NCBI GenBank assembly: GCA_945872435.1
Contig: CAMBYP010000007.1
Coordinates: 1-36,960 of the forward strand
Origin: an uncultured Mycoplasmatota bacterium
GTDB lineage: Bacteria; Bacillota_I; Bacilli_A; RF39; UBA660
Reading direction: 5' to 3'
Length of the DNA stretch: 36,960 bases
The position numbers and the translations under genes were made by a program. Numbering within the stretch: position 1 is the stretch's first letter; each line of letters begins with the position of its first letter. The notes under the pieces are model-generated. The model was not told the DNA's origin. It was given only the letters and a program-made list of their open reading frames with translations, and searched no databases. This document shows positions 18,702 to 20,217 of this stretch, one piece after another.

Positions 18702-18992
18702 ATGTTGGAATTATTACAATTAAATATTCAATTATTTGCTCATAAAAAAGGACAAAGTTCTACTAAAAACGGACGTGATTCTGCTGGTAGAAGACTTGGT
18801 GCAAAAGCAAGTGATGGTGAATTTGTAACAGCTGGTTCTATTTTATACCGTCAACGTGGTACAAAAGTATATCCAGGAACTAATGTAAAAATTGGAAAAG
18901 ATGATACTTTATATACAGTAATTGATGGATATGTAAAATATGAACGTCGTGGTAAGGATAAAAAACAAGCAAGCGTTTATCCTACTAGATAA
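18702..18992 (+). CDS. rpmA: 50S ribosomal protein bL27 with cleavable N-terminal extension
   Basis: 96 residues. The N-terminal LQLNIQLFA followed by HKKGQSST matches the Prp cleavage site (after residue 13, LFA|HKKG). Removal exposes the mature N-terminus that reaches the peptidyl transferase centre. The body shows [18 protein letters not shown] and [23 protein letters not shown] precedes the ATG. A strong terminator ends the operon. Confidence 0.97.
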
Positions 18993-19068: not shown

Positions 19069-19097
19069 TTGAAATTTTCTTTAAAAAGTGCTATACT
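19069..19097 (+). promoter_or_regulatory. Promoter of the islet RNA
   Basis: TTGAAA (19069-19074), 17-bp spacer, TATACT (19092-19097) with TG at 19089-19090. Predicted transcription start is near 19104. One of the best promoters in the window, yet it serves no long ORF. Confidence 0.75.
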
Positions 19098-19140
19098 TTA
19101 GGTGTGAAGAGAGAGTAGAAAAGGGTGGAGGTGAAAGTCT

Positions 19141-19170
19141 ATGTGGAGATGGCTAACTAGATTTTTCTAA
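19141..19170 (+). CDS. 9-codon ORF with optimal Shine-Dalgarno
   Basis: ATG 19141 to TAA 19170 encodes MWRWLTRFF. GGAGGTGA (19127-19134), an 8-nt match to the anti-Shine-Dalgarno, sits 6 nt upstream, which strongly suggests translation. The peptide is cationic and rich in Trp and Phe. Its end overlaps the left arm of a long-range stem (19155-19160), so a ribosome on the ORF would block that pairing, as in leader-peptide attenuation. A bioactive micropeptide is the other option. Nothing in the sequence decides between them. Confidence 0.5.
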   Translation: MWRWLTRFF

Positions 19171-19231
19171 TAGGGACATTAACCAAACGTATATGCACTG
19201 GTAATGATATAGAATAGTTAATGTTGACTAG

Positions 19232-19262
19232 TTTCCGGCACTAATTTTAGTGTCGGGAATTT
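19232..19262 (+). terminator. GC-rich hairpin at the end of the islet RNA
   Basis: CCGGCACTA (19235-19243), loop ATTT, TAGTGTCGG (19248-19256); TTT/GAA flanks extend the stem. The T-tract is weak (TTTCATT), so it may be a structural domain or a conditional terminator. Confidence 0.6.
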
Positions 19263-19328
19263 CATTATATAACAAAATATAGGTAAACTTCAAGACTTAT
19301 TTAAGAAAAATTTATACTTTACATAATT

Positions 19329-19362
19329 TGATATTTCGACATTGAAATATCATTTTTTTTTT
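19329..19362 (+). terminator. Strong terminator upstream of the CPBP gene
   Basis: TGATATTTC (19329-19337), loop GACATT, GAAATATCA (19344-19352), ten Ts. The stretch 19263-19328 between the two hairpins shows no gene. Confidence 0.8.
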
Positions 19363-19370
19363 GCTACAAT
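19342..19370 (+). promoter_or_regulatory. Promoter of the CPBP-like gene, embedded in the terminator
   Basis: TTGAAA (19342-19347) lies in the loop and right arm of the preceding terminator. A 17-bp spacer follows, then TACAAT (19365-19370) with TG at 19362-19363. Confidence 0.65.
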
Positions 19371-19393: not shown

Positions 19394-20074
19394 GTGAAAA
19401 ATAAAAATATTATGGAACTTTGTAAAGTATTTATTATTTTTCTAATTTATTTAGTATATAATAGTGTTTTCCATATGATATTCGATATGCTACATATTGA
19501 CAATGGTATTATTACTATGTTTACTGGAGATGTTTTATTTTTAGCAGGTATGTTGATGTTATATCGAAGTGATTTAAAAGAGAGTTTAAATCAGTTAGAT
19601 GGAAGCAAACGAAAATTTATTGGAAAAGTGATTTTAGGTGTTGTATTATTATTTGCAGTAAATATGATTGTTGGTATGATTGTAGAATTGTTAGTTCCAT
19701 CTAATACAATTAGTGACGATAATACTACATCTATTTATAATTTGTCACAAATATCATTTGCTTATACATTATTTAAAACAATGGTGTTTGGTGTGGTTGC
19801 AGAAGAATTATTGTTTAAACAATCGCTTCGTAAAGCGATTACCAATAATGTTTTATTTGTAATATCTAGTAGCTTTATATATGCAGTAATGAATGTAATA
19901 TATGGTGATTTAAATAGTCCATATTTTTTAACAGATATGCTTTCATATTTTGTTGTTTCAGCTACTTTAGCAACAATTTATGTTAAAAATAATGATAATA
20001 TTGTTCTTGTTATGTTTATTAAATTCTTTTATAATTTACTTCCAATGTGTATTCTGATTGCGGGGATATTTTGA
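19394..20074 (+). CDS. CPBP/CAAX-protease-like membrane protein with degenerate motifs
   Basis: 226-residue membrane protein with about six to seven hydrophobic segments. The segment VAEELLFKQSLRKAI matches CPBP motif 1 (EExxxR; here the Arg position is Lys). The later FIYAVMN and KFFYN lie where FxxxH and HxxxN are expected, but both His are replaced. CPBP proteins include intramembrane proteases and bacteriocin-immunity proteins. With the glutamates kept and the His lost, protease activity is doubtful. The start is GTG 19394, 7 nt after GGAG; an alternative ATG is at 19412. Its stop overlaps the ATG of a microprotein (TGATG). Confidence 0.7.
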   Translation: MKNKNIMELCKVFIIFLIYLVYNSVFHMIFDMLHIDNGIITMFTGDVLFLAGMLMLYRSDLKESLNQLDGSKRKFIGKVILGVVLLFAVNMIVGMIVELLVPSNTISDDNTTSIYNLSQISFAYTLFKTMVFGVVAEELLFKQSLRKAITNNVLFVISSSFIYAVMNVIYGDLNSPYFLTDMLSYFVVSATLATIYVKNNDNIVLVMFIKFFYNLLPMCILIAGIF

Positions 20075-20217
20075 TGAAGTTAAGTCATTTGATAAATACA
20101 TTAGCCGTCGTACAAAAAACTACTTCTGGTCAAAAGAACATGAACATTATTATCATCGTTGCAGTGATAGTTATTGTAGTTTTGGTAGCTAGTACTGTAT
20201 TTTCAAATAAAAAATAG
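20074..20217 (+). CDS. 47-residue membrane microprotein coupled to the CPBP-like gene
   Basis: ATG 20074 overlaps the previous stop by one base (TGATG), a classic reinitiation arrangement. The peptide has a polar N-terminus (MKLSHLINTLAVVQKTTSGQ), one hydrophobic segment (NIIIIVAVIVIVVLVASTVF) and ends SNKK, so a single-pass membrane protein is expected. The stop TAG lies in the left arm of a terminator. No family recognised. Being tied to the CPBP-like gene suggests a joint function such as a toxin or substrate with its partner, or a membrane complex; this is inference. Confidence 0.7.
   Translation: MKLSHLINTLAVVQKTTSGQKNMNIIIIVAVIVIVVLVASTVFSNKK

Follow-up and report, generated by a model that had tools for sequence, protein, structure and literature searches.

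The micro-gene and its surroundings

In the window, that is, the whole stretch of 36,960 nucleotides that was analysed, a short element is flanked upstream by rpmA (18702-18992) and downstream by a CPBP membrane-protein gene; next come a gene whose product has one transmembrane (TM) helix and then obgE (Table 1). An earlier note on this DNA had proposed a new structured RNA that carries a translated nine-residue peptide, and the parts that it named were all recovered: the extended -10 promoter, the Shine-Dalgarno sequence GGAGGTGA ahead of the ATG, an open reading frame (ORF) encoding MWRWLTRFF, the two stems AACTAG/CTAGTT and ACATTAAC/GTTAATGT, and a GC-rich hairpin. The ORF is strongly initiated and probably translated. 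The string GGAGGTGAN6ATG occurs once in the window, against an expectation of 0.36 in each shuffled window (at most one mismatch). The micro-gene element folds with a z-score of -2.2, and Rfam covariance models gave no match at it. The sole Rfam match in the window is an L21 ribosomal protein leader (RF00559; 17983-18054, plus strand; 54 bits) upstream of rplU-prp-rpmA.

Table 1. Positions of the micro-gene features and of the two module genes downstream.
Feature	Position	Strand	Remarks
Micro-gene promoter, TTGAAA-17-TATACT, extended -10 (TG)	19069-19097	+	Similar promoter type in most other modules
Shine-Dalgarno sequence GGAGGTGA, ATG 6 nt downstream	19127-19134	+	Invariant within the genus; strong Shine-Dalgarno sequence in every module
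Micro-ORF MWRWLTRFF-stop, start ATG at 19141	19141-19170	+	9 codons
AACTAG, 5' arm of stem 1	19155-19160	+	Not conserved
ACATTAAC, 5' arm of post-stop stem	19176-19183	+	Conserved at genus level only
GTTAATGT, 3' arm of post-stop stem	19217-19224	+	Pairs with ACATTAAC
CTAGTT, 3' arm of stem 1	19228-19233	+	Not conserved
Micro-gene intrinsic terminator, GC-rich hairpin with weak U tract	19235-19256	+	
Predicted antisense promoter, TTGAAG-18-TATAAT	19264-19293	-	Points back into the micro-gene
Predicted promoter for CPBP alone, TTGAAA-17-TACAAT, extended -10	19342-19370	+	Conserved in the window genus amid diverged surroundings
CPBP/Rce1-like membrane protein without the two catalytic His, putative pseudoprotease	19394-20074	+	PF02517, motif table, AF2 model
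47-residue single-TM protein (MKLSHLINTLAVVQKTTSGQKNMNIIIIV...FSNKK)	20074-20217	+	Third gene of the module, its start overlapping the CPBP stop

Peptide and RNA were compared in homologues found at the same place in four genomes of the window genus, the stem alignment comprising five sequences. In the most divergent homologue (G001, 73% identity), the Shine-Dalgarno sequence and the ORF are intact; three codons differ (CTA to CTT, ACT to ACA and the stop codon TAA to TAG), each silently, and the peptide frame is maintained. The AACTAG/CTAGTT stem is lost in this genome and shortened in another (G002), with no compensatory change counted in the alignment. The ACATTAAC/GTTAATGT stem retains its eight pairs across the five sequences, the single change being A-U to G-U. 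Four pairs of the terminator hairpin are altered on one side only and one by a compensatory change, the only such change in the genus alignment. Since the Shine-Dalgarno sequence and the ORF stay intact where AACTAG/CTAGTT is lost, conservation covers the peptide frame and a terminator but not the proposed switch. Across genera, the Shine-Dalgarno sequence, the peptide and a terminator are retained and the RNA between them is not. The proposal of a new structured RNA is therefore not borne out: AACTAG/CTAGTT disappears in relatives, compensatory changes in both stems are absent, and the pattern is the opposite of an RNA that persists while its Shine-Dalgarno sequence and ORF are lost.

A micro-ORF family and its CPBP partner

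The sequences compared come from one bacterial family and are mostly MAGs; the hosts are small-genome, largely uncultured Bacilli/Mycoplasmatota, related gut bacteria, and the taxonomy of one relative is Candidatus Pelethosoma. Scans with the pattern MW[RK]WL..FF detected the same kind of ORF in further genera of this family. Matches elsewhere (L017, L018, L020, L024, L031 and, in part, L122-L143) were read as chance or as longer ORFs. Viral contigs contained no match to the pattern and a distant blastn search found none in plasmids or phages, and a mobile origin was rejected on these grounds.

Regions 3' of rpmA were surveyed in 90 genomes of the family, a minority of the contexts being incomplete or unreadable. 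An ORF rich in Trp and Phe and preceded by a Shine-Dalgarno sequence was present in 12 of the 13 contexts with a CPBP gene next and in none without CPBP. Anchoring on CPBP instead, with a 12-sequence profile searched in the family genomes, yielded more micro-ORFs at loci unrelated to rpmA (L128/L148, L156, L162 and others); the peptides there are more diverged, as exemplified by MWAWFRRFF, MSWLRRLFGWV, MWSFILRIFGFH and MWWKIFFGWL.

A uniform rule was then applied to the loci from the profile searches of the family genomes, requiring a Shine-Dalgarno sequence within 4-13 nt, 8-13 codons and aromatic content, with canonical CPBPs and reversed sequence as controls for chance micro-ORFs. A micro-ORF was found upstream of the His-less CPBP at 29 of 31 loci and upstream of canonical, His-bearing CPBPs at 0 of 44, and the reversed upstream sequences gave 0/31 and 0/44. 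The Fisher p of about 1e-18 is to be read as a contrast between the two groups and not as a discovery, because the rule was fixed after the family had been seen, and the related genomes in the count are not fully independent. The family scans contained no micro-ORF without its CPBP, and two such CPBPs without a micro-ORF (L167 and L183). When the profile was run against 296 genomes sampled across the class, strong matches were confined to the family; matches outside it did not exceed 98.8 bits, and three of these, two in f13 and one in f14, were examined and had no micro-ORF. Because it stands almost always just upstream of one His-less type of CPBP, the micro-gene probably encodes a working micro-peptide rather than an RNA switch, and we are highly confident that it is a real, functional peptide gene.

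The micro-peptides follow the consensus M-W-x-W-L-x-[RK]-F-F; they are rich in Trp and Phe, usually cationic and amphipathic, and variable outside the W/R/F core. Among 27 distinct peptides, each contains 2-7 aromatic residues and the net charge is mostly +1 to +3, and the helical hydrophobic moment exceeds the mean of the peptide's own permutations in all 27 (mean z 1.4, Stouffer z 7.4). In the nonapeptides, positions 3, 6 and 7 are polar and positions 1, 2, 4, 5, 8 and 9 hydrophobic, a pattern that would fit a short helix lying on the surface of the membrane. The suggestion that the cationic, Trp-rich product might be directly active is in keeping with these properties.

The window CPBP matches PF02517 with 30.4 bits (cut-off 22.4) and no NCBIfam family. 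Its motif 1 Glu-Glu is present (AEELLFK), and IYAVM and KFFYN replace FxxxH of motif 2 and HxxxN of motif 3, removing both catalytic histidines; we infer from the absent residues that the protein is inactive as a protease. A second CPBP encoded in the same genome (G000:C1:30047-30706) retains FGGLH, HTFHN and all catalytic residues, and has no micro-ORF. In the CPBPs linked to micro-ORFs, too, motifs 2 and 3 are without their catalytic histidines, and most of these proteins keep the motif 1 Glu. In a tree of 74 CPBPs the His-less proteins group together (support 95/91), and the distribution of the micro-ORF on it needs three changes, as against about 23 with shuffled labels. One gain and two losses would account for this, the losses being at L167 and L183; the L183 protein retains one histidine of the pair. 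A window CPBP match was also sought with PADLOC, which gave none, and a defence role was discarded.

An AF2 model of the CPBP built from a 37-sequence alignment has a pLDDT of 91, the single-sequence model being poor. Comparison with solved structures gave Z 9.9 over 197 residues for Rce1 (4cad) and Z 8.6 for SpdC (6u0o), the next row having 5.2; these values support the CPBP fold without proving it, because helical membrane proteins often give modest Z values. The assignment to the CPBP/Rce1 fold is independently supported by PF02517. Foldseek alone returned no significant PDB match for the model.

The usual gene 3' of a His-less CPBP encodes a protein whose last part is a single TM helix bearing the pattern N-x-N-I-I-I-I ... 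K-K. There is a short flavour of 45-82 residues, which includes the window copy, and in other genera a long flavour of about 208-234 residues, in which the same C-terminal tail is joined to an outside domain with the motifs YSWSFDK and HCSDYFLT. No such gene was seen after the canonical CPBPs checked. At L183 this third gene is present and the micro-ORF absent; at L167 both are absent. As judged from these arrangements, the module appears to have three members: the micro-peptide, the His-less CPBP and a protein whose one TM helix is C-terminal.

Transcription units and antisense promoters

An intrinsic terminator was found 3' of the micro-ORF in all 31 modules examined, its stem beginning 2-72 nt past the stop codon. 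Overall, promoter scores exceed those of shuffles both upstream of the micro-ORF (Stouffer 12.7) and upstream of CPBP (7.6); they vary by locus, with a weak -35 in several. A promoter site similar to that of the window CPBP gene is predicted for most CPBP genes of the modules. At L147 (G106), micro-ORF and CPBP are 519 nt apart, and this interval contains a broken extra gene. The latter, disrupted by a frameshift, is the relic of a short gene for a pilin-like or TM protein.

On the minus strand just 3' of the terminator, a promoter-like TTGnnn-18-TAnAAT element that points back into it, with constant spacing and variable spacer sequence, recurs at eight loci in three genera and is absent in most modules. 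Its conservation leads us to predict an antisense RNA over the micro-gene at those loci. An antisense promoter directly behind the terminator may explain the weak U tract.

Possible roles of the module

At the level of comparative sequence, we observe a family of ORFs, an amphipathic pattern in their products, near-exclusive pairing with His-less CPBPs, terminators throughout the modules and, in most of them, separate predicted promoters. We give about even chances to the reading in which the micro-peptide is a small partner or ligand of a complex between the CPBP and the single-TM protein. The self-contained micro-gene (promoter, strong Shine-Dalgarno sequence, nine codons, intrinsic terminator) would produce a leaderless, amphipathic, aromatic and cationic peptide. 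Its ORF would be translated, probably many times per mRNA, by analogy with the seven-codon mccA gene of microcin C, which has a terminator right after it and for which reiterative translation was measured (PMC6495379). The peptide would bind the membrane interface and be recognised by the non-catalytic CPBP; the CPBP would scaffold the single-TM protein in a manner resembling the binding of SagB by SpdC, and the peptide would tune this complex. Within the window genus, the micro-mRNA is probably held in check by an antisense RNA.

A toxin with its immunity protein would predict almost the same linkage between peptide and CPBP. The peptide would then be a micro-toxin or mini-bacteriocin that harms the membranes of its own cell or of neighbours, the His-less CPBP would be the antidote, and an antisense RNA would limit expression in some genera in the style of type I toxin-antitoxin systems. 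The cationic, amphipathic and Trp-rich nature of the peptides agrees with this, as do the predicted antisense promoter at eight loci in three genera and the finding that the micro-ORF never stands without CPBP in the family scans, yet CPBP twice stands without the micro-ORF. CPBP/Abi proteins have also been tied to bacteriocin self-immunity (Kjos et al. 2010, as far as relayed in PMC12214887), but known Abi immunity requires the catalytic motifs (PMC12214887) that the His-less CPBP lacks. Moreover, most modules have no antisense promoter, inheritance on the CPBP tree is stable and largely vertical, no transporter adjoining the module was seen in the ORF lists inspected, and the third gene suits a simple toxin pair poorly. 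We know of no type I toxin as short as nine residues. We regard this explanation as possible but unlikely.

Leader-peptide attenuation, put forward in the earlier note, would let the position of the ribosome on the micro-ORF decide terminator formation and hence CPBP transcription. The gene order ORF-terminator-CPBP and a terminator stem that begins just 2-12 nt past the stop codon in many loci would suit it. However, the switch stem AACTAG/CTAGTT is broken or shortened in relatives, the distance from stop to stem ranges up to 72 nt, and the peptides retain amphipathicity rather than one arrest sequence. Because of the terminators, the CPBP genes' own predicted extended -10 promoters in most modules and the broken gene between micro-ORF and CPBP at L147, a leader role is improbable. 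A regulatory RNA with an incidental ORF would account for the stable fold (z -2.2), for the post-stop stem kept within the genus and for the predicted antisense promoter, but the peptide pattern is conserved across genera whereas nothing outside the Shine-Dalgarno sequence, ORF and terminator is, and we consider this very improbable. Finally, the position of the window micro-gene after prp-rpmA raised the idea that the peptide mimics the N-terminal extension of L27 that controls Prp; its C-terminal ..FF recalls the Prp cleavage motif. The probability of this idea is close to nil: rpmA sites without CPBP are also without the micro-ORF, and we rejected it as a general explanation because the micro-ORF accompanies CPBP to loci without rpmA (the non-rpmA loci named above).

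The partner or ligand reading can be set against the nearest known systems, each of which has just one aspect in common with the module. Like mccA, the micro-ORF is a dedicated ultra-short gene separated from the next gene by a terminator; unlike there, adjoining genes encode no MccB-type adenylating or modifying enzyme, the peptide is amphipathic and aromatic, and the second gene encodes a CPBP-fold membrane protein and has a predicted promoter of its own. SpdC/LyrA is a CAAX-family scaffold that acts through transmembrane contacts and non-proteolytically (PMC5854430, PMC12214887). The SpdC/LyrA-SagB pair of Staphylococcus aureus may be a parallel, in that a CPBP fold (6u0o, Z 8.6) scaffolds a single-TM protein there without proteolysis, but our third protein is not a SagB-type hydrolase and sequence identity is low. 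To our knowledge, no micro-peptide belongs to that system. Abi/CPBP self-immunity loci resemble the module in that a peptide gene adjoins a CPBP gene; here the peptide is leaderless and has 8-13 residues, the CPBP is without catalytic His, and no transporter or regulator genes were seen. With type I toxin-antitoxin systems the module shares a small membrane-prone peptide and, in a subset, a conserved convergent promoter predicted to drive an antisense RNA, whereas this promoter is mostly absent, the CPBP partner is obligate and the peptide is far shorter. The glutamic intramembrane proteases MroQ/MrtJ are the nearest named NCBIfam CPBP families for part of the 37-member set; they are active proteases, unlike the window CPBP with its missing NCBIfam match and motif 2/3 His. 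A limited search of the open literature found no described counterpart of the three-gene module.

Gene finders and smORF catalogues apply length cut-offs that genes of 8-13 codons just reach or fall below; a large catalogue, for instance, begins at 30 nt (PMC11364881). That such a micro-ORF family occurs in many genera, paired almost constantly with a pseudo-intramembrane protease, shows that anchoring on a partner can reveal genes of this size, and the module offers a directly testable system for the role of inactive CPBP proteins. We tentatively propose an undescribed class of membrane module, in which an intramembrane pseudoprotease would scaffold a single-TM surface protein and have as its ligand or subunit a ribosome-made peptide of 8-13 residues with a gene of its own, under antisense RNA or c-di-GMP control in some lineages; if so, the micro-gene would rank with the smallest known genes dedicated to a protein product. 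In G149, a c-di-GMP-I riboswitch (L149:2484-2566, minus strand, 52.5 bits) lies directly upstream of the micro-ORF for MLRWLRKFL. The other four c-di-GMP-I riboswitches of this genome precede type IV prepilin-like genes (three) and the gene for a secreted-looking protein (one). Near two non-rpmA module loci we also noted a T-box leader (L169:462-723, minus strand) and a group II intron match (L148:3023-3098, minus strand).
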